From Thioalkalivibrio sp. XN8 (GTDB lineage Bacteria > Pseudomonadota > Gammaproteobacteria > Steroidobacterales > XN24), in contig NZ_JAALFH010000011.1 in NCBI RefSeq assembly GCF_011058255.1, positions 1-64,000 on the forward strand: DNA of 64,000 nt, written 5' to 3'. The translations under genes and the position numbers were made by a program. Shown here piece by piece: positions 26,827-34,332 of the stretch (its first letter is position 1; each line of letters opens with the position of its first letter). The notes under the pieces are model-generated. The model was not told the origin of the DNA, searched no databases, and saw only the letters and a program-made list of their open reading frames with translations.

Positions 26827-26913
26827 TGGTCCGGAGAGATGGGCCGGCACCGCCGGCCTCGCGGTCGAACTCGCCATCGTCTGTCGGGAGTTCGAACCTC
26901 TCCAGATACATCG

Positions 26914-26956
26914 GTCAAACAAAAAAGGGTCCCGGTGGGACCCTTTTTCGTTTGAC
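26914..26956. terminator. terminator-like palindrome, repeat unit 1
   Basis: GTCAAAC (26914-26920) pairs with GTTTGAC (26950-26956), enclosing AAAAAGGGTCCC and GGGACCCTTTTT. The hairpin has an A-tract on one side and a T-tract on the other, so it could stop transcripts from both directions. On the minus strand it is placed as the 3' terminator of a tRNA-Arg transcript before the element integrated. Confidence 0.7.
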
Positions 26957-27076
26957 TGGCGCGCCCGGAGAGATTACCGGCGCCGCTATGCGGCACCGTT
27001 GTCTCGGCCGACTACGTCGGCCTCGGCTCGAACTCGCTCTTATTTGTCGGGAGTTCGACTCTCTCCAGATACATCG

Positions 27077-27119
27077 GTCAAACAAAAAAGGGCCCCGATG
27101 GGACCCTTTCTTGTTTGAC
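27077..27119. terminator. terminator-like palindrome, repeat unit 2
   Basis: Second copy of the bidirectional hairpin: GTCAAAC (27077-27083) and GTTTGAC (27113-27119) around AAAAAAGGGCCC and GGGACCCTTTC. It abuts the left attachment repeat of the integrated element directly, and would be the nearest terminator downstream of the uninterrupted tRNA-Arg gene. Confidence 0.7.
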
Positions 27120-27172
27120 TGGCGCGCCCGGAGAGATTCGAACTCCCGACCTTCTGGTTCGTAGCCAGACAC
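27120..27172 (-). repeat. left attachment repeat (displaced tRNA-Arg 3' part)
   Basis: Identical over 53 bp to 33678-33730. It contains the CCA end, acceptor 3' strand, T-arm and anticodon arm of tRNA-Arg(ACG) but no D-arm or 5' half: the match ends at AGCCAGACAC, after which GGCTGACG replaces the tRNA sequence TCTATCC. It cannot make a tRNA. Confidence 0.9.
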
Positions 27173-27314
27173 GGCTGACGGCATTTCATCTTTAGAAACA
27201 AAGCCCTATGGCTTTGGGTTGTCCCATAGATAGGGTCGGCCACCATCCGCTAAGGCATTGAAAAACAGAGAATATCGTTCCAGCTATGGGACACCAAGTG
27301 GAGGCATTGAATTT

Positions 27315-27345
27315 TCTCACTGGGAATATATACTGGCCAGTGAGA
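27315..27345. promoter_or_regulatory. inverted repeat in front of the first element gene
   Basis: TCTCACTGG (27315-27323) and CCAGTGAGA (27337-27345) are a perfect 9-bp inverted repeat with an AT-rich centre (GAATATATACT). It lies 20 bp before the ATG at 27365 and looks like an operator or overlapping promoter. Two further pairs are in the same 190-bp leader: GTCCCATAG/CTATGGGAC (about 27222 and 27286) and a direct repeat AGGCATTGAA (about 27252 and 27302). Confidence 0.5.
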
Positions 27346-27364
27346 CTGGACAGAGGGCGCTACG

Positions 27365-28060
27365 ATGTCGATCACTTTCACACTTAACGATGTAAAGCGG
27401 GTTAGCCGCGGAATATGGCTAGCAGAACTCTCCCCCGACGAAATTGGGGCTCTTGGCCCCCCAGTCCTGACCTACGGATCCGTCTCCATTGTGTTGGTGC
27501 TTCAGCATGTAGTCGATGCTCAGGACCGAATAGGCTTCTCCATGCCCGTCAAGGTCTTGAATCGAGGATCCTCGAAATACGCGGTATTCATCGATGCGAA
27601 TTCGTACAGGGAGCCCGAGGAATGGCAACGCGTCGTCTACAACGCCGGAGATTCCAATCCTCCACCTTCGGAATCCGAAGGAACAGAGAGTCCCGGCATC
27701 TCCATGGGACCCGGGGATACTAAGTTTCTGCAGGGCCTTCCGCCTGAATTAAAACGGACCGGAGAGCTTCTGTTGAGCCGAGTCAGAGAATGGCATTCGG
27801 GCCAGCTGATCTACCATGACAGCTCCAAGAAGTTCGTGGAGACGCCAAACTTCTGGGCCGTGGTAATTCAGCCGCGGGACGTATCTCTGCGAGTCACAGT
27901 TTATGGCTCGCTTGATAACTACTCGGAATCGACTCTGGACCTGAAGCGGGACTTGCCCTCCTACACATCATTCAAGATCGATCGAGAGGACCAGGTAGAC
28001 GAGGCTGCGCGAATCATCCGGAAGGCATATGCCCTAAAGCAGAGTCGGCAGATGGGTTAA
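27365..28060 (+). CDS. hypothetical protein with DUF5655-like C-terminal domain
   Basis: The protein has 231 residues. The N-terminal ~90 residues are beta-rich with no recognised family. A low-complexity Pro/Ser/Gly linker follows (about 98-118). The C-terminal ~105 residues (LPPELKRTGELLLSRVREW, TPNFWAVVIQPRDVSLRVTVYG, SYTSFKIDREDQVDEAARIIRKAYAL) have the strand-helix pattern of the DUF5655 domain found in predicted type IV restriction and defence proteins. This match is by eye and not certain. It is the first gene of a likely operon with the DUF3883 gene, 71 bp ahead of it. Confidence 0.6.
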   Translation: MSITFTLNDVKRVSRGIWLAELSPDEIGALGPPVLTYGSVSIVLVLQHVVDAQDRIGFSMPVKVLNRGSSKYAVFIDANSYREPEEWQRVVYNAGDSNPPPSESEGTESPGISMGPGDTKFLQGLPPELKRTGELLLSRVREWHSGQLIYHDSSKKFVETPNFWAVVIQPRDVSLRVTVYGSLDNYSESTLDLKRDLPSYTSFKIDREDQVDEAARIIRKAYALKQSRQMG

Positions 28061-28131
28061 GCAGGATGCCTCGCCCGGTAACGATCCGAGGGGTGCTCTG
28101 ACTCACATGAGGGACACGTGAGAGGAAAGTG

Positions 28132-29265
28132 ATGGCACAGATTCTGAAGGTGCGAAAGACGGGGGACTTCCAGGAAGGCAGCGCAAGAGAGCGCTGGTAC
28201 CACCGGTTACTTGAATTCGATGGTCGGTCAAAGGACGCATTCGTAACGAGCGTGGAGCATGATCCACCCTCCACACCCGAAACCGGATTACTCGAAGGCC
28301 AATTAGAGCCGGTCGCTGGATGGCTCCGTTTCTTCAGGAACGAAGGCCTTTTGGAATTCGAGGAAACCAACGAGTCGGGCTTTGAAATCCAAACGAAGCC
28401 AGCAAAGACGGGCGGCGACGAGTGGTCCGAGGAGGAAGTGCGAAGGGTCGTCTCAGACTACTTCGCGATGTGGCACAAGGAGCAGACCGGCCAGCCTTAC
28501 AACAAGACCAAGCATCGAAATCTCTTAATCGAGAACGGGCTCAATCGCTCCAAAGGCTCCATCGAGTTCAAGCATCAGAACATTAGCGCGGTCCTCTTGG
28601 ATGAAGGCCTGCCATACATCGCGGGTTATAAACCTGCCCGCAACTATCAACAGTTGCTAGCCGACATCGTTCGCCAGCACATTGCGGCGGAAGAACATCA
28701 ACTAGAGTCGGCATTAGAGACCGGTGACCTTGGGGTCGATCCAGAGCCGGAAACGGTCGATTTCTCGGGATGGGTTGTTTCTCCCCCAGATGCGCCCAGA
28801 GAATCTTCGAATACACGACCCACTCGGCGAGCAACTAAGATCGACTACTCCGCTAGAGAGGAAAGAAATCGAAAACTCGGTCGATCGGGCGAGAAAATCG
28901 TCCTTGAATACGAGGTCTGGCGACTAGAGACCGCGGGCCGCACAGACCTCGCCGAGAAGGTCCGATGGGTTTCGGATGTCGATGGCGACGGCCTGGGCTA
29001 TGACATTCGCTCCTTCGATGCGGATGGAGTGGAGATATTCATCGAGGTCAAGACGACTCGTAGTGGAATCGAAATGCCATTCTTGATTTCCGCGAACGAG
29101 GTCGAGGTTGCGAAAGAGTACGGGGAGCAGTACCGGGTATACCGAGTTTTCAATTACCCCAAGAACCCGCAGGTTTATGTTCAGACCGGCCAACTACTCG
29201 ATTCTTTCGAATTGGTCCCTCGCCTATTTGAGGCTCGCCCCAAAAGAACGACGAAACAAGAGTAA
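28132..29265 (+). CDS. DUF3883 (NOV_C) nuclease-fold protein
   Basis: The protein has 377 residues from ATG 28132. The C-terminal domain starts near residue 243 (RKLGRSGEKIVLEYEVWRL) and has GYDIRSFD (about 289) followed by IFIEVKTTRSGIEMPFLISANE (about 303). The spacing D-x(14-16)-E-x-K is the PD-(D/E)XK signature, as in DUF3883 proteins, which are common in restriction and phage-defence genes. The middle (about 96-180) has KHRNLLIENGLNRSKGSIEFKHQNISAVLLDEGLPYI, resembling the DNA-recognition-like segment that often precedes HNH or DUF3883 domains. The N-terminus is unassigned. A DNA- or modified-DNA-cutting role is inferred. Confidence 0.78.
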   Translation: MAQILKVRKTGDFQEGSARERWYHRLLEFDGRSKDAFVTSVEHDPPSTPETGLLEGQLEPVAGWLRFFRNEGLLEFEETNESGFEIQTKPAKTGGDEWSEEEVRRVVSDYFAMWHKEQTGQPYNKTKHRNLLIENGLNRSKGSIEFKHQNISAVLLDEGLPYIAGYKPARNYQQLLADIVRQHIAAEEHQLESALETGDLGVDPEPETVDFSGWVVSPPDAPRESSNTRPTRRATKIDYSAREERNRKLGRSGEKIVLEYEVWRLETAGRTDLAEKVRWVSDVDGDGLGYDIRSFDADGVEIFIEVKTTRSGIEMPFLISANEVEVAKEYGEQYRVYRVFNYPKNPQVYVQTGQLLDSFELVPRLFEARPKRTTKQE

Positions 29266-29334
29266 GTGCCTGAGGAGTTGTCAGGCCACCTTCCCTGTGA
29301 GATGTTGGCCACACGAACTCACCAGGTAGCAGCC

Positions 29335-29679
29335 ATGTCCGAGCGCGAGACCATCGATAGATTCGATGACAGGATCAAGGCCTTCAAGGGCCAGCTGCCA
29401 ACGCTCGAAAGCGCGATTGGCGCCTATGTCACCGGCCGTAAATTGGGTTGGAAGGTGCTCTACCTCGTTCACGACAAGCGGACGATCCGCAAGTACGAGG
29501 AAATCCTGGGTATTCGGTTTCGGGACGAGCTGCCAGCGGACGGCGAACACGCGGATAAATCCCTGGCCTGGGTGATGGCAAGCAAGCTATCGAATTTCTG
29601 GAAGGCCGTTTCCGGCGAGCTCAAATTTAAGGATAAGAAAGGCAAAGAGCACACCGTCAGAGATCCGACGCTCACCTAG
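29335..29679 (+). CDS. small hypothetical protein of the integrative element
   Basis: The protein has 114 residues from ATG 29335; an in-frame codon further upstream at 29266 is possible but lacks a clear ribosome site. It is charged and helical (IDRFDDRIKAFKGQLPTLESAIGAYV, LVHDKRTIRKYEEILGIRF) with a basic C-terminus (KDKKGKEHTVRDPTLT). No family was recognised. A strong terminator follows 25 bp after the stop, so it closes the transcript that begins at 27365 or has its own. Confidence 0.6.
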   Translation: MSERETIDRFDDRIKAFKGQLPTLESAIGAYVTGRKLGWKVLYLVHDKRTIRKYEEILGIRFRDELPADGEHADKSLAWVMASKLSNFWKAVSGELKFKDKKGKEHTVRDPTLT

Positions 29680-29704
29680 ACAGGGTCAACTCGAAACGAT
29701 GAAT

Positions 29705-29732
29705 AGAGGGGGATTGATTCCCCCTCTTTTTT
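29705..29732 (+). terminator. intrinsic terminator
   Basis: AGAGGGGGA and TCCCCCTCT form a 9-bp perfect stem with loop TTGAT, followed by TTTTT. It separates the small unknown gene from the Rep gene and ends 17 bp before the Rep start. Confidence 0.85.
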
Positions 29733-29749
29733 CGGCTAGCCTAAGGTGT

Positions 29750-30283
29750 ATGGAATCCACCTTAGAACAAGCTCTGGCCGACGAATACCGCAAGCATCCG
29801 AGGGTCTTGCGTCGCCTTGCCTTGGGCGAGTTCATCGCCAGGTATCCCTGGCAGTGGTTTGTCACCCTGACATTTACCGATGACGTCCATCAGGAACGAG
29901 CTTTCAAGCTCTACCGGGTTTGGATCAGCAAGCTGAATAAGCACCTGTTCGGCCACCGTTGGCACAAGCGCGAGCCGTTCGGCGTGTTTTGGGTGGTGGC
30001 CTACGAATTGACTAAAGGTGGCCGTATCCACCTACACGCGCTCTTGAGCGGTGTCGCAGAGACGCGTCGTTTGGACTGGATGGACAACTGGTTCGGCCTG
30101 GACGAAATCGCGGGCTACTCCCGGATTTGGCCCGTGGCAAACCCGGTGGCTGTTTCGATGTATGTGACCAAGTACGTGACGAAAGGTGGCGAGATTGAGT
30201 TCTCCCGCAACCTCCGTGACGTTTCCCGGGACCTCGTGGCCCTGGCCGGTGGCTCTGGTAACAGCCCCACACCCGCGAGGTAG
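29750..30283 (+). CDS. HUH-type rolling-circle replication initiator (Rep)
   Basis: The protein has 177 residues from ATG 29750, just after a terminator. Motif 1 is WFVTLTFTDDV (about 36-46); motif 2, the metal site, is GGRIHLHALLSG with His94 and His96; motif 3 is MYVTKYVTKGG with Tyr138 and Tyr142, a YxxxY pair. This is the three-motif pattern of HUH endonucleases of rolling-circle replicons and ssDNA phages. It should nick one strand of the excised circle to start replication. The protein is short and lacks a helicase domain, so host helicase would be needed. Confidence 0.82.
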   Translation: MESTLEQALADEYRKHPRVLRRLALGEFIARYPWQWFVTLTFTDDVHQERAFKLYRVWISKLNKHLFGHRWHKREPFGVFWVVAYELTKGGRIHLHALLSGVAETRRLDWMDNWFGLDEIAGYSRIWPVANPVAVSMYVTKYVTKGGEIEFSRNLRDVSRDLVALAGGSGNSPTPAR

Positions 30284-30372
30284 TCCCCGGGCGTGGATTG
30301 GCAACGGATCGGATGCGCAGGGGCGCACCGACCGTTGCTTGACGGTATAGGTGCGCCCATAGGAAATGTGAA

Positions 30373-30600
30373 TTGATTAACCAGCCCATATATCTGACGG
30401 ATCGCGAGCTCGAGGCCATCACTGGTCGGCGCCGATCGTCTGCTCAGATCCGCTGGTTACGCTCTAATGGGTTCCTTTGTATCCGCCGGGGTGACGGTCG
30501 CCCCCTAGTCTCCCGAAGCCACTTCGAGGCCGTAATGGGCGGGATCCTCCCGGCACCGTGCCTGGACTATCCTGAACCTGACTTCGAAGCCCTGCGGTGA
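30373..30600 (+). CDS. DUF4224 domain protein, putative excision/regulatory factor
   Basis: The protein has 75 residues; the only reasonable start is TTG at 30373, with AGGAAA ahead of it. YLTDRELEAITGRRRSSAQIRWLRSNGF and RGDGRPLVSRSHFEAVMG fit DUF4224, a small helix-turn-helix-like family found next to phage integrases. The last base of its stop is the first base of the integrase start (TGATG at 30598), so the two are coupled. A role in directing excision is inferred. Confidence 0.75.
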   Translation: MINQPIYLTDRELEAITGRRRSSAQIRWLRSNGFLCIRRGDGRPLVSRSHFEAVMGGILPAPCLDYPEPDFEALR

Positions 30601-31634
30601 TGCCAAAGCCACGGAAGCCCGAGAATCGCCCCCTCCCCGCCCGGTGGCGGCATAAGCACGGGGCCTACTACTACCGGGTCCCACCTGGCTCGGAGAGCCA
30701 GTGGGACGGAAAACAGGAATTTCGACTGGGGGTGACGCTGGCAGAGGCGTATCGGGTATGGGCACTGCGGTTGGATCCGCCCGAGGGGATAAGGCTACTT
30801 GGAGACCTCTTCGATCGTTACGCAGCCGAGGTGGTCCCCGCGAAGGCTCCCAAGACTCAGGTGTCGAACCAGCTCTCGCTCAGGCGCTTGAGGTTGGTAT
30901 TCGGCCAGGTGCCGGTAGCAGTGCTGAAGCCTCGACATGCCTATAGGTACCGGGACGAGGTTACACGCAGACACGGAGCCGCGTCTGCTAATAGGGACCT
31001 AGAGGTATTGTCACACTCCCTGTCTAAGTCGGTTGAGTGGGGAATTCTGGACAACAATCCGATAAAGGGACAGGTCAAGAAGAACCCGATCAAGCGGCGC
31101 GAACGTTATGTAGAGGACTGGGAACTCCGAGAAGCCTTGTCGGCCGCTGGAGAACCACTGCGGTGCTACATCACATTGAAGTTGCTTACGGGCCTCCGCA
31201 GATCAGATTTACTGCGGGTCACGACCGCCGATCTCAATACCGAGGGGATTCATGTTCGTACTTCAAAAACTGGTACCGCAGTGTTGATCCAGTGGACCAC
31301 GCAGCTTCGCAATGCCGTTCAGGAAGCTCTCGACTCGCGACCTCGGACAGATGTTCCTTGGCTATTCTGCACTCGGCGAGGAGACTGCTATGTGAAGGGC
31401 AGTGGCTCTGTCAGTGGGTTTGACTCATTATGGCAGCGGTTCATGCGTCGGGCGCTTAGGACGACTGCATTGGAGATCCCGTTTCAAGAGAAGGATCTGC
31501 GCAAGAAAACCGCTAGCGACATGCCACTATACGACGCACAGATGTTACTTGGACACAGTTCCGCAACAACCACGGCGAGGCACTATCGCCTCCGGGCCAA
31601 TAGAGTCACGCCTCACTCTCTAAGTGACGATTAG
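30600..31634 (+). CDS. int: tyrosine-type site-specific integrase
   Basis: The protein has 344 residues from ATG 30600. A short arm-binding segment with YYRVPPG and a core-binding helical domain precede the catalytic domain. Catalytic residues: Arg in LLTGLRRSDLL (about 197), Lys in RTSKTGT (about 222), KDLRK with Arg301, GHSS with His319 and nucleophile Tyr329 in ARHYRLR. The usual His of the HxxR box is Lys298, an accepted variant. It is the obvious enzyme for insertion at tRNA-Arg(ACG), although it lies inside the element rather than beside the attachment repeat. Confidence 0.88.
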   Translation: MPKPRKPENRPLPARWRHKHGAYYYRVPPGSESQWDGKQEFRLGVTLAEAYRVWALRLDPPEGIRLLGDLFDRYAAEVVPAKAPKTQVSNQLSLRRLRLVFGQVPVAVLKPRHAYRYRDEVTRRHGAASANRDLEVLSHSLSKSVEWGILDNNPIKGQVKKNPIKRRERYVEDWELREALSAAGEPLRCYITLKLLTGLRRSDLLRVTTADLNTEGIHVRTSKTGTAVLIQWTTQLRNAVQEALDSRPRTDVPWLFCTRRGDCYVKGSGSVSGFDSLWQRFMRRALRTTALEIPFQEKDLRKKTASDMPLYDAQMLLGHSSATTTARHYRLRANRVTPHSLSDD

Positions 31635-31679
31635 GCAACAACAGTTGTGTAGAATCCGGGTCAGGCTGGGAAAGAACTA

Positions 31680-32960
31680 ATGTATCTAAAGCTGCTCTCG
31701 ATTCATAACTACAAGTCGCTTCGTCGGATCGAATTTGAGCCGTCGCGCATGGCCTGCTTGATCGGCGCCAACGCCTCAGGCAAGTCTAATTTTGCTGACG
31801 CATTGGATTTCCTGTCTGAGGTCGCCACCGTTGGCCTCGAACTAGCGATTGCTAGGAAAGGGGGCTACGAAAACATCGCCTTCAGGAGACAACGCCGGTC
31901 AAAAGCGCCATTAGCGTTCCGCGTCGTCATTGAGGCTTCGTCGAAAGACCTCATTTCGATGGCGGAGGACCCGCATCCTTCGAGCGCTAGCGTACAAATC
32001 GATCACAGTTTTGTCTTTGGAACAAAAGGCGAATCGATCACAGCTCCGTTTCAGGTAGAAACCGAGCAGTTCGAAGTTAAGTATCGCGAGGCCTCAACCC
32101 AGCAATTCCGTCGAATCTATAGGATCGATCGCGACCAAGCTGGCGCCATCAAGGTTAGCAAAGGCAAGAAGATCCCCAAACATCTGAAGCATGAATCCGA
32201 CTTCATTTCTCTCTACGGAATAGAAAGCTGGCAACGAATTGACGCATCTGCGCAAAGGCTATTGGTTGGGCCAGATCGAATCATCGATTCGTTTACCTAC
32301 GCCTACAATCGCGCACTTTCAGAAACACAAGTTTTCCGATTCTCGCCTGACTCAACGCGCTCGCCAGGCGTCCCGACGCCGAATGCCAGACTTCGCAGCC
32401 TTGGCGAAAATCTTCCAGCGCTTGTTGATTGGTTGCAGCAGAACCACCCGCAGCAATGGCATCAGGTTATGGCTGGAATGCGTGATGTATTGCCGACCCT
32501 TCGAGAGGTTTCCGTAGATTACTCACCTTCCAAAACGCTCATCCTAAGGTTTCTCGAGAATGACACAGGGCGTCCTTGGGCGGCAGAGGATGTTTCGGAC
32601 GGAACGATCCAGAGCCTTGCCATTTTCTGCGCCGCTGCGGACCCGCGGATCACGATCCTCCTCATTGAGGAACCCGAAAACTCTGTTCACCCTTGGGTCG
32701 TAAGATCACTCTTAGATAGGTTTAGGGATCTTAGTCGCGCTAAGACCGTTATCTTGACGACTCACTCTCCTACACTGATAGATCGCCTGGAGCCAAGTCA
32801 GGTTTGGATCTGCACAAGGCGTAATCTTGAGACAAAACTCAAGCGACTGACTTCTTATGATGCGCAGATCGAGGCTGACTGGCGAGATGGGAAGTACCGA
32901 CTATCAGAATTCCTGGATTCCGGCTTGGTACCTAGTGCGGTCCCCGGGGGACAAGATTGA
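31680..32960 (+). CDS. AAA family ATPase (RecF/OLD-like, AAA_21)
   Basis: The protein has 426 residues. KLLSIHNYKSLRRIEFEP starts the RecF-like fold; Walker A is GANASGKSN (29-37), Walker B is ITILLIEEPENSVHP (about 323-337) and the switch is VILTTHSPTLIDRL (about 356-369). The ABC-like signature region is VSDGTIQSLAIF. There is no TOPRIM domain in this protein; a TOPRIM-like partner is encoded next with a 4-bp overlap (TTGA). Such ATPase-plus-TOPRIM pairs include known defence systems (Gabija, PARIS); this pair is inferred to act as one. Confidence 0.8.
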   Translation: MYLKLLSIHNYKSLRRIEFEPSRMACLIGANASGKSNFADALDFLSEVATVGLELAIARKGGYENIAFRRQRRSKAPLAFRVVIEASSKDLISMAEDPHPSSASVQIDHSFVFGTKGESITAPFQVETEQFEVKYREASTQQFRRIYRIDRDQAGAIKVSKGKKIPKHLKHESDFISLYGIESWQRIDASAQRLLVGPDRIIDSFTYAYNRALSETQVFRFSPDSTRSPGVPTPNARLRSLGENLPALVDWLQQNHPQQWHQVMAGMRDVLPTLREVSVDYSPSKTLILRFLENDTGRPWAAEDVSDGTIQSLAIFCAAADPRITILLIEEPENSVHPWVVRSLLDRFRDLSRAKTVILTTHSPTLIDRLEPSQVWICTRRNLETKLKRLTSYDAQIEADWRDGKYRLSEFLDSGLVPSAVPGGQD

Positions 32961-33574
32961 CTCTTGGGATTGTTGTAGACGGTCGAGCGGAAAGCCAAGC
33001 ATGGGCTCCTCTGGTTGATCGTCTCTGCGCGACTTTAGGCGTAACAGTTTGCCGCCCGGTCTATGCGGACATGCAACCGCGCGCCACCCCTCCCCAAGTT
33101 GCCCGAGCAGCCCTTAGTCGTATCCAGCTCTTGCGGCAACGTGGAGCGCAAAGAATCGTAGTTTTAATTGATCGGGATGACTCACCGATTTGCCCCGGTG
33201 AATTCGCCCGAGATTTGGAGGCAGCCCTTGATAATTTGGGAAGCCCTGCGAGCGTCGTCGTGAAAGACCAGTGCTTCGAAAACTGGCTTGTCGCAGATCC
33301 ATCCGCTTTCCGAGCGATGCCCAGCCGATTCGCAGTCACACAGAGTTTCGAGCGCTCAGTGGCGCCTAATCGGGCCGACAATGCAGATGCGCTGCGCCTT
33401 ATCAATCGAATCACGATACGACGAGAGTACGACAAGTCGTCTGATGCGCATGCTTTGTGTAAGCACGCCGAGCCAGCTCGGATGGCGGCAAATTCCCGTT
33501 CCTTCCGCCGTTTTCTTAGACTTCTCGGGCACCCAGACTTTGAATCGCAGAGCCGGAGGCCGGCACGTCAATAG
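32957..33574 (+). CDS. DUF4276/TOPRIM-like partner protein
   Basis: The protein has 205 residues from TTG at 32957, which overlaps the ATPase stop (TTGA). LGIVVDGRAESQA carries a Glu at residue 12, and IVVLIDRDD (67-75) gives the DxD-type acidic pair; together these are the metal-binding pattern of TOPRIM and of DUF4276. CFENWLVADPSAFRA follows, again as in DUF4276 proteins. A nuclease or effector role dependent on the ATPase is inferred from paired systems. Overlapping genes imply a fixed stoichiometry. Confidence 0.72.
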   Translation: MTLGIVVDGRAESQAWAPLVDRLCATLGVTVCRPVYADMQPRATPPQVARAALSRIQLLRQRGAQRIVVLIDRDDSPICPGEFARDLEAALDNLGSPASVVVKDQCFENWLVADPSAFRAMPSRFAVTQSFERSVAPNRADNADALRLINRITIRREYDKSSDAHALCKHAEPARMAANSRSFRRFLRLLGHPDFESQSRRPARQ

Positions 33575-33640
33575 GCGATCAGGGCGGGTGCAAGATTGGA
33601 TTGCACCAACATCTATGGGACAACGGGTAGGAGATGGGAC

Positions 33641-33671
33641 AAAAGAAAAGGGGTTGCTCTCGCAACCCCTT
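33641..33671 (-). terminator. intrinsic terminator downstream of tRNA-Arg
   Basis: AAGGGGTTGC (33648-33657) and GCAACCCCTT (33662-33671) form a perfect 10-bp stem with loop TCTC. Read on the minus strand, it follows the tRNA CCA end by 7 bp and leads into TTTTCTTTT. It replaces the original tRNA terminators that were displaced to the left end of the element, so the element restores 3' end formation for the gene it entered. Confidence 0.85.
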
Positions 33672-33677
33672 GATTTT

Positions 33678-33754
33678 TGGCGCGCCCGGAGAGATTCGAA
33701 CTCCCGACCTTCTGGTTCGTAGCCAGACACTCTATCCAACTGAGCTACGGGCGC
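33678..33754 (-). tRNA. tRNA-Arg (anticodon ACG)
   Basis: A 77-nt gene including an encoded CCA (TGG at 33678-33680). Acceptor GCGCCCG (minus strand, 33754-33748) pairs with CGGGCGC; the D-arm is GTAGCTCAGTTGGATAGAG; the anticodon loop CTACGAA has ACG at 33720-33718; the T-loop is GTTCGAATC. Its order next to tRNA-Ser(GCT) and csrA equals that of E. coli serV-argVYZQ. The 3' 53 bp is one attachment repeat of the integrated element. Confidence 0.95.
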
Positions 33755-33770
33755 GTACTTGAACTCGGCT

Positions 33771-33965
33771 CCGGGTCGAACCCGGTCATTGTTGCTTCGA
33801 GGGTTCGAATCCCGCGAAACACCCATTCCAATCTGTGGCGGAGAGGGAGGGATTATCGGCCGCCTGCGACGGCTCGTTCCCTGCGCCGGCTCCGCCGGCT
33901 CCGGGTCGAACCCGGTATTCGTTGCTTCGAGGGTTCGAATCCCGCGAAACACCCATTCCAATCTG
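33771..33965. repeat. tandem units carrying the 19-bp 3' end of tRNA-Ser(GCT)
   Basis: Between the two tRNA genes, TGGCGGAGAGGGAGGGATT (last 19 bp of tRNA-Ser, minus strand) occurs at 33836-33854, exactly 130 bp before the true gene end at 33966-33984. After it comes a GC-rich spacer with hairpins (GCCGGCTCCGCCGGC and others). The block CCGGGTCGAACCCGGT..GTTGCTTCGAGGGTTCGAATC with AAACACCCATTCCAATCTG is present twice, at 33771-33835 and 33901-33965, nearly identical. The plan is the same as at tRNA-Arg. Confidence 0.75.
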
Positions 33966-34059
33966 TGGCGGAGAGGGAGGGATTCGAACCCTCGAAGGGG
34001 CGTTTTAACCCCTTACTCCCTTAGCAGGGGAGCGCTTTCGACCACTCAGCCACCTCTCC
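33966..34059 (-). tRNA. tRNA-Ser (anticodon GCT)
   Basis: A 94-nt class II tRNA including encoded CCA (TGG at 33966-33968). Acceptor GGAGAGG (34059-34053) pairs with CCTCTCC; the anticodon arm reads CTCCCCTGCTAAGGGAG, giving GCT; the long variable arm is AAGGGGTTAAAACGCCCCTT; the T-arm contains GGTTCGAATCC. It is the serV equivalent in the csrA-serV-arg order. Confidence 0.95.
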
Positions 34060-34092: not shown

Positions 34093-34244
34093 AACCCTCG
34101 AAGGGGCTTTATGACCCCTTACTCCCTTAGCAGGGGAGCGCTTTGCTCCGGGCGTCCTGCCCTCCGCCCTGCGGGTCAGCGCCGCTTCGCGGCCCTGACC
34201 AGGATCGCTCCCGGCGATCCTGTCGACCACTCAGCCACCTCTCC
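34093..34244 (-). pseudogene. broken tRNA-Ser(GCT) copy with a 79-nt insertion in the D-loop
   Basis: From 34093 the sequence matches the intact tRNA-Ser at 33966-34059 through variable arm and anticodon arm up to GCGCTTT (34138-34144). Then about 79 nt of unrelated DNA (34145-34223) interrupt the D-loop before the match resumes with CGACCACTCAGCCACCTCTCC (34224-34244). The T-arm and acceptor 3' strand are missing. The insertion holds two hairpins: GGTCAG/CTGACC and CAGGATCG/CGATCCTG. It cannot give a functional tRNA. The 34060-34092 and 34245-34332 flanks show nothing else. Confidence 0.8.
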
Positions 34245-34332
34245 GGCTTGTTCGGCCGGAGCCACGCTCCCGCCGAAAGGCGAAGCATGATACCGAGGGG
34301 TGCTGGACAGGTAAAGGGTACGGGGGGCGGGA

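Follow-up and report, generated by a model that had tools for sequence, protein, structure and literature searches.

Tandem hairpin units ending in tRNA 3′-end copies behind tRNA-Ser(GCT) of Thioalkalivibrio sp. XN8 share the design of the E. coli tyrT repeats

The closest described counterparts of the sequences considered here are the 178-bp repeats of E. coli K-12 tyrT/tyrV (RttR; Rfam family RtT, RF00391), which lie in tandem behind tRNA-Tyr. Each tyrT unit consists of an inverted T-arm/acceptor block, AAGGTTCGA, hairpins carrying CCCGAAGGGYGA and finally ATCCTTCCCCCACCACCA, which is the tail of the tRNA (positions 59-76). In the Rfam structure, the inverted block and the tail pair to form a closing stem. 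In PMC4986893, the tyrT repeats appear as one Rfam family with well-conserved relatives in Pasteurellaceae, RtT-family RNAs are detected in Actinobacillus, and an effect on the stringent response is cited for RtT. No description of a class-wide design was found among the literature matches listed, which comprise open-licence papers.

Units of the same design and order occur in a 64,000-nucleotide stretch of the genome of Thioalkalivibrio sp. XN8 (contig NZ_JAALFH010000011.1), the whole of which is called the window below. Their likeness to the sequences behind the E. coli tyrosine tRNA and their recurrence across the Gammaproteobacteria indicate that a 19-letter repeat first noticed at tRNA-Ser(GCT) is one end of a widespread, little-described element.

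Anatomy of the units at tRNA-Ser(GCT) and tRNA-Arg(ACG)

The 19-mer TGGCGGAGAGGGAGGGATT occurs exactly at 33836-33854 and again at 33966-33984, an offset of 130 bp, and 0.02 matches with up to three mismatches are expected by chance in the whole window. The tail repeat of the original prediction is real and not a product of chance, and the inverted T-arm-like block that it described is also present, as a 19-bp exact match of 33925-33943 and 33795-33813 to the tRNA at 33979-33997. The 19 bp at Ser(GCT) form one edge of a larger tandem unit: 33766-33854 and 33896-33984 are a single 89-nt direct repeat, 97% alike, with a period of 130. The spacer, which had been called unrelated, in fact includes the local T-arm in inverted form as well as hairpins. 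Read along the strand of tRNA-Ser(GCT), the tRNA is followed by a spacer, the inverted T-arm (19 nt), GGGTTCGA, 52 nt of hairpins, the tail copy and a truncated second unit that extends in the direction of tRNA-Arg; the final unit of an array is often truncated. The features of the locus are as follows.

33966-34059, minus strand: intact tRNA-Ser(GCT) (ARAGORN; Rfam tRNA)
33925-33943, minus strand: inverted T-arm copy, 19 bp, exact complement of 33979-33997 (repeat comparison)
33906-33913, minus strand: copy of T-arm positions 51-58 (GGGTTCGA) preceding the cassette (sequence)
33854-33905, minus strand: hairpin cassette (52 nt) belonging to the complete Ser unit, flanked by the copies of T-arm 51-58 and of 59-76 (sequence; model R2)
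33836-33853, minus strand: tail copy, tRNA positions 59-76 with CCA, 18 nt; the extra matching A is 33854 (sequence match)
33766-33835, minus strand: second unit, truncated, near tRNA-Arg, with spacer, inverted T-arm (33795-33813) and T-arm 51-58 (33776-33783) (sequence)

The boundary common to the copies lies at 18 bp, which correspond to tRNA positions 59-76 including CCA. Counted from the CCA end, 18 nt reach position 59, and the boundary therefore falls within the T-loop, right after TTCGA. At Ser-GCT and Arg-ACG the match is 19 rather than 18 nt because the base preceding position 59 happens to be A. Thus, of the claim that two tRNAs stop at exactly 19 bp, the common boundary stands, and the length is reduced to 18 plus an incidental A at the edge of a larger unit. 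A closing stem of 5 bp (GGGAT/ATCCC) is available in the Ser(GCT) unit and one of 12 bp in the Gly unit; the minimum-energy fold of the Ser unit leaves the closing stem unused. This fold is only modestly stabler than shuffles (z -2.1), and that of the Arg unit is far stabler (z -8.5).

The next gene, tRNA-Arg(ACG), carries an array of its own, and an island lies between the two.

33678-33754, minus strand: intact tRNA-Arg(ACG), which doubles as the attachment site of the island (ARAGORN)
30597-31634, plus strand: tyrosine integrase of the island (Pfam PF00589)
27120-27172, minus strand: attR-like 53-bp copy of the 3′ part of tRNA-Arg at the far island end (sequence)
26957-26974, minus strand: copy of tRNA-Arg(ACG) positions 59-76, moved away by the island (sequence match)
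26865-27138, minus strand: tRNA-Arg tail array, a 111-nt repeat (90%) of period 163 that comprises a terminator-like hairpin, the inverted T-arm, a copy of T-arm 51-58 and hairpins (repeat comparison)

The Arg(ACG) 19-mer does recur, as predicted for the same design at this tRNA, at 26957, 27120 and 33678. Of these, 27120 belongs to the far end of the island (approximately 27173-33677), whose two ends have 53 bp of tRNA-Arg(ACG) in common, and the true Arg tail copy is therefore the one at 26957. Besides its integrase, the island encodes an AAA_21 ATPase adjoining a DUF4276 protein, possibly a candidate defence pair, as well as a NOV_C protein and a G2P-like replication protein. Three further loci (L148, L151 and L161) resemble the window in having a unit behind a detached tRNA 3′ fragment, which suggests that islands may often enter array-bearing tRNAs.

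Occurrence in the XN8 genome and across the class

A genome-wide search for tail copies, proposed together with the original prediction, was positive for 7 of the 42 tRNA genes, with lengths of 18 or 19 nt. These are all four Ser genes, Arg-CCG, Gly-CCC and the displaced Arg-ACG, and six of them (Ser CGA, GCT, GGA and TGA, Arg CCG and Gly CCC) have an exact copy within 1.2 kb downstream. The copies measure 18 nt, or 19 at Ser-GCT and Arg-ACG; Ser-TGA has a further 18-nt copy with one mismatch, and a weak match at Thr-TGT (25 nt, four mismatches) was left out of the count. Each unit contains the inverted T-arm copy, T-arm 51-58 and GC hairpins, followed by 59-76. Stretches of N interrupt the arrays at Ser-GGA and Ser-CGA (L031 and L039); they are assembly gaps in tandem repeats and make the unit counts there unreliable.

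A MAFFT alignment of the units (A1) was poor, and an earlier covariance model (R1) that lost the closing stem was set aside. Its successor, R2, has a structure assigned by hand and was trained on 11 units, two of them from E. coli, with the window unit excluded. R2 matches the window Ser-GCT unit at 33836-33952 with 25.2 bits and an E value of 0.0075 over its own 3.1-Mb genome. Scoring of 150 of 2396 first-look candidates there gave at least five matches, the others being the Gly unit (a training sequence), Ser-CGA (E 1.4e-4), a place lacking a tRNA (E 0.87) and Ser-TGA (E 3.5). The Rfam RtT model matched no window unit between 26000 and 35000 at E values up to 1, its gathering score not being reached, and it found nothing in loci L008, L012, L031, L039 and L049. 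At 14 loci of other units only tRNA and tmRNA reach Rfam gathering scores. Weak matches to sX4 and miRNA families in the window and loci fall below these scores and were judged to be chance.

Among 80 csrA loci of other gammaproteobacteria, five have partial tail copies of at least 12 nt other than the neighbouring tRNA gene, all of them 19 nt long, and decayed units are visible at others. R2 matches (E 1e-4, strict filters) were obtained in at least 33 of 94 sampled genomes of the class, a lower bound with no more than 36 candidates scored per genome. The fetched regions contain 133 matches, which reduce to 129 distinct units. An intact tRNA lies within 1.2 kb upstream of 92 of them, 4 are behind a tmRNA, 1 is behind a detached tRNA fragment and 8 are located within or close to tRNA copies that precede a tRNA. 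The remaining 24 have no tRNA or tmRNA link by the rules used; some of these end like a tRNA (for example L210, L225 and L261) and others do not (for example L248, L250 and L256). The cognate tRNA is not in every case the nearest, as at L264. A separate pattern search yielded 16 matches in 12 of 369 genomes, and the reversed pattern yielded none in the same 369; on reading the loci, 15 of the 16 sit at a tRNA, tRNA copy or tRNA fragment, L152 being the exception.

Several placements depart from the common one. Units follow tmRNA genes at L182, L208, L221 and L243, the last at a distance of about 400 nt. In genome G031 (L241, L248, L250, L252 and L254), cassettes lie away from same-strand tRNA genes, within other repeated hairpin elements. 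In two genomes (L228 and L235) the unit faces an opposite-strand tRNA-Phe gene about 80 bp off.

All 18 tail nucleotides are kept in 47 of the 92 tRNA-linked units. Where at least 8 nt starting at position 59 match, which is the case in 59 units, identity goes on leftwards for 0 nt in 17, for 1 nt in 39 and for 2 nt in 3. Of the original interpretation, a common process bounded in the T-loop is supported by 7 of 42 tRNAs, by 5 of 80 csrA loci and by 59 of 59 units in this model-based sample, which depends on a model trained on units with that boundary; a breakpoint mechanism at this point may be presumed.

Cassettes and their flanking tRNA pieces

The comparison of tails and cassettes covers units in which at least four tail nucleotides match and a GTTCGA-like start can be recognised. 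In 52 of 60 cases, no other unit-bearing tRNA of the genome fits the tail copy as well as the nearest one does. Cassettes behave differently: identity is 0.742 for the same genome and different tRNAs (39 pairs), against 0.663 for other genomes and the same tRNA (164 pairs) and 0.660 for other genomes and different tRNAs (1228 pairs). These values come from 54 units of 29 genomes, one per locus and tRNA, with many sampled genomes fragmented and pairs of units not independent. The likeness within genomes has a p value of 0.0002 when genome labels are permuted, and all 69 units give 0.743 (same genome, different tRNA) against 0.667 (other genome, same tRNA). From these sequence comparisons we infer that the cassette moves apart from its flanking tRNA pieces.

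Cassettes also occur in other tRNA loops. Two such features lie upstream of the intact tRNA-Ser(GCT) gene of the window.

34093-34245, minus strand: truncated extra tRNA-Ser(GCT) copy, between csrA and the intact gene (repeat comparison)
34144-34222, minus strand: four-hairpin cassette of 79 nt that interrupts the D-loop of this extra copy directly after TCGA (sequence and fold)

The sister genome G001 (L035) has no extra tRNA-Ser copy between csrA and tRNA-Ser. In L188 (minus strand), cassettes are located in the anticodon loop of tRNA-Ser(CGA) copies, after TCGA, and a tRNA-Ser copy at L101 (3270-3520) has inserts in both the D-loop and the T-loop. Just upstream of an intact tRNA-Gln, L154 (1370-2112) carries three tandem 213-bp copies of a leader and a T-loop-split tRNA-Gln. 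Inserts follow TTCGA in T-loops and TCGA in the window D-loop and in L188; the D-loop insert of L101 follows CTGA, and other triplets are found in some non-tRNA copies.

One unit is present in one genome and absent from its relative. Downstream of tRNA-Gly(CCC), genomes G000 and G002 align over 719 bp at 76%, and the aligned flank begins at a distance of 171 bp from the tRNA in G000, compared with 1 bp in G002. A single 170-bp unit of G000 is thus missing at the same locus of the sister genome, where gain and loss are not distinguishable. What G002 retains is the terminator together with a remnant of the block, and the inverted block may accordingly come first, loss of the unit being equally possible. 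The other sister, G001, could not serve as an empty site at Gly-CCC because its downstream flank does not align. At Arg-CCG, G001 has no unit within 400 nt (synteny of the downstream flank unchecked), and the Arg-CCG pattern has no match in G002.

We lean towards the explanation that a hairpin cassette, acting as a DNA-level element, spreads into duplicated tRNA tails at 58|59 and that tandem amplification follows. A tRNA 3′ end would be duplicated to give a dead copy made up of T-arm 51-58 and 59-76 with CCA, and a GC-hairpin cassette, preceded by the inverted T-arm copy, would then split this dead tail between positions 58 and 59. The tRNA pieces on either side would derive from the local gene, and the cassette would pass from tRNA to tRNA inside a genome, entering loops of duplicated tRNA (or tmRNA) tails mostly after TCGA. 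Arrays may lengthen or shorten through recombination between repeats. The order of these events is conjectural, transfer could proceed by recombination or by single-stranded DNA transposition, and no RNA function would be required. Neither an excision product nor a new insertion was seen. Against the DNA-element reading, strand-specific loop motifs and covarying stems would also fit an RNA function, 24 of the 129 units have no tRNA or tmRNA link, and not all inserts follow TCGA.

A broader form of this proposal is more tentative, and we put it forward as a possibility that may well prove wrong. A class-wide, non-autonomous hairpin element would enter the loops of tRNA genes (T-loop at 58|59, D-loop and anticodon loop), mostly after TCGA, and its hitting of duplicated tails, not the gene, would drive tandem split-end arrays behind Ser, Arg, Gln, Glu, Gly, Tyr and tmRNA genes. 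On this view, one example has long been known, in the tyrT repeats of E. coli.

Alternative explanations and related systems

A functional RNA is an unlikely but serious alternative. The unit would be co-transcribed with the tRNA, fold into a multi-branched structure whose closing element mimics the acceptor/T-arm minihelix and be freed when the tRNA is processed, which is what has been reported for E. coli RtT. The pairing of block and tail in the Rfam RtT structure and the RtT-family RNAs of Actinobacillus are consistent with this, and the cassette stems covary strongly: in an alignment fitted to the model, 85.5% of cells pair, and both sides are changed in 574 cells against 169 in shuffles. 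A simple rule, which missed at least a Gly-type hairpin lacking a long T run, identifies no terminator before 39 of 65 first units, and the Ser units of the window are flanked by two tRNA genes; the same rule places 26 of the 65 behind a terminator-like hairpin, which argues against an RNA. The absence of the Gly unit from the same locus of a sister species points in the same direction, as does the closing stem, whose sequence goes with the tRNA and not with the tail of the unit itself. Among 22 units with a tail unlike the tRNA, 14 have an inverted block that pairs better with the tRNA than with the unit tail, 5 have one that pairs worse and 3 one that pairs equally well (three of the 22, from L264, were compared with a non-cognate tRNA, 2 being better and 1 worse). 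The closing stem thus appears to be largely inherited from the tRNA. At L055, L081 and L155, the inverted block continues the inverted repeat of the terminator into the tRNA tail.

G-T pairs are rare in two cassette stems, P3 (5/668) and P6 (6/352), and not low in P1 (75/720) and P2 (39/596). Since tRNA acceptor stems in the same loci are low as well (29/1315; T-stems, 47/938), this scarcity is merely suggestive against an RNA, and we did not retain it as proof of selection at the DNA level.

In one version of the functional-RNA explanation, the unit would be a CsrA/RsmA sponge, because many of its hairpin loops carry GGA. GGA hairpin loops are CsrA sites, and here GGA is found in 169 of 531 loops, compared with 6 of 496 on the other strand. 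Similarly, CANGGANG, the consensus used for the CsrA/RsmA test, occurs in 43 of 126 units; shuffled sequences give 9.2, and the opposite strand gives 0. Conversely, GGA is in no predicted hairpin loop of the four E. coli units.

It is distinctly improbable that the cassette is a non-autonomous element of the IS200/IS605 or RAYT type, moved as single-stranded DNA by a Y1 transposase that cuts after TTCGA. Such an element would account for insertion after TCGA in most tRNA loops seen, with no target duplication noticed, for hairpins at both ends and for the likeness of cassettes within genomes. GNA triloops are unusually stable in DNA, and C(GNA)G triloops are present in 132 of 531 loops, compared with 3 of 496 on the other strand. 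Y1 genes are weakly associated with the units, being found in 25 of 33 unit-bearing genomes and in 15 of 33 genomes chosen by the author from 61 without unit matches (Fisher p 0.023, uncorrected for genome size). Eight of the 33 unit-bearing genomes nevertheless have no detected Y1 gene, and 27 of 30 fetched Y1 loci show no model match, the other three matching at up to E 1 (best 7e-4); the XN8 genome itself has two Y1 matches. The survey of unit-bearing and unit-less genomes tied no transposase or recombinase to the cassette, and a Y1 transposase as its partner is not supported.

We consider it very improbable that integrases using tRNA 3′ ends left the 18-19 bp behind as att repeats, although these ends are classical att sites and a tyrosine-integrase island sits in tRNA-Arg here. 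The common end of that island is 53 bp, not 18, and the island lies between tRNA-Arg and its array. Complete units of 130-180 bp hold no integrase, the window units (130 and 163 bp) being too short for one, and the integrase is confined to the separate island; a single 58|59 boundary, moreover, recurs in many tRNAs and genomes. The att reading was therefore set aside on length and content. A parallel with the retroviral primer-binding site, which involves 18 nt and tRNA positions 59-76, was considered and not adopted; Gammaproteobacteria are not known to carry m1A58. Chance or an assembly artefact, for which N runs inside two arrays of this genome might speak, is negligible given the expectation of 0.02 matches, the occurrence of the design in the complete genome of E. 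coli K-12 and matches in at least 33 of 94 genomes.

If the tyrT repeats are indeed members of a class-wide family in which the T-loop boundary is fixed and the cassette spreads, their function and origin become testable by comparison, as do false tRNA and sRNA annotations around tRNA genes. Loops of tRNAs would then join integrase sites as preferred targets of small genetic elements.

Each of the related systems shares some traits with the units. Islands that integrate at tRNA genes also produce a direct repeat of the tRNA 3′ end, but the units have 18 nt rather than the 53 seen here, no integrase and a fixed 58|59 edge. REP/BIME and RAYT elements are likewise short, repeated, extragenic GC hairpins that are alike within a genome, whereas the units are mostly tied to tRNA or tmRNA (105 of 129) and inserted in loops. 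Sponges of the CsrB/RsmZ type also consist of repeated hairpins with GGA in the loop, and CANGGANG is enriched in the units; the likeness is limited to a third of the units, is missing from the E. coli loops and is often found behind terminators. Release by tRNA processing is reported for RtT RNA; the window units are not known to be transcribed. The window units also differ from E. coli RtT in belonging to other tRNAs and in their shorter, different hairpins, and some other units, unlike RtT, are preceded by terminators. Nonetheless, R2, trained in part on E. coli units, recognises the window unit, the arrays of window and genome consist of tandem units behind a tRNA that each close with its 3′ end, and the block complementary to the unit tail is found in both the Ser and Gly units, as it is in RtT.
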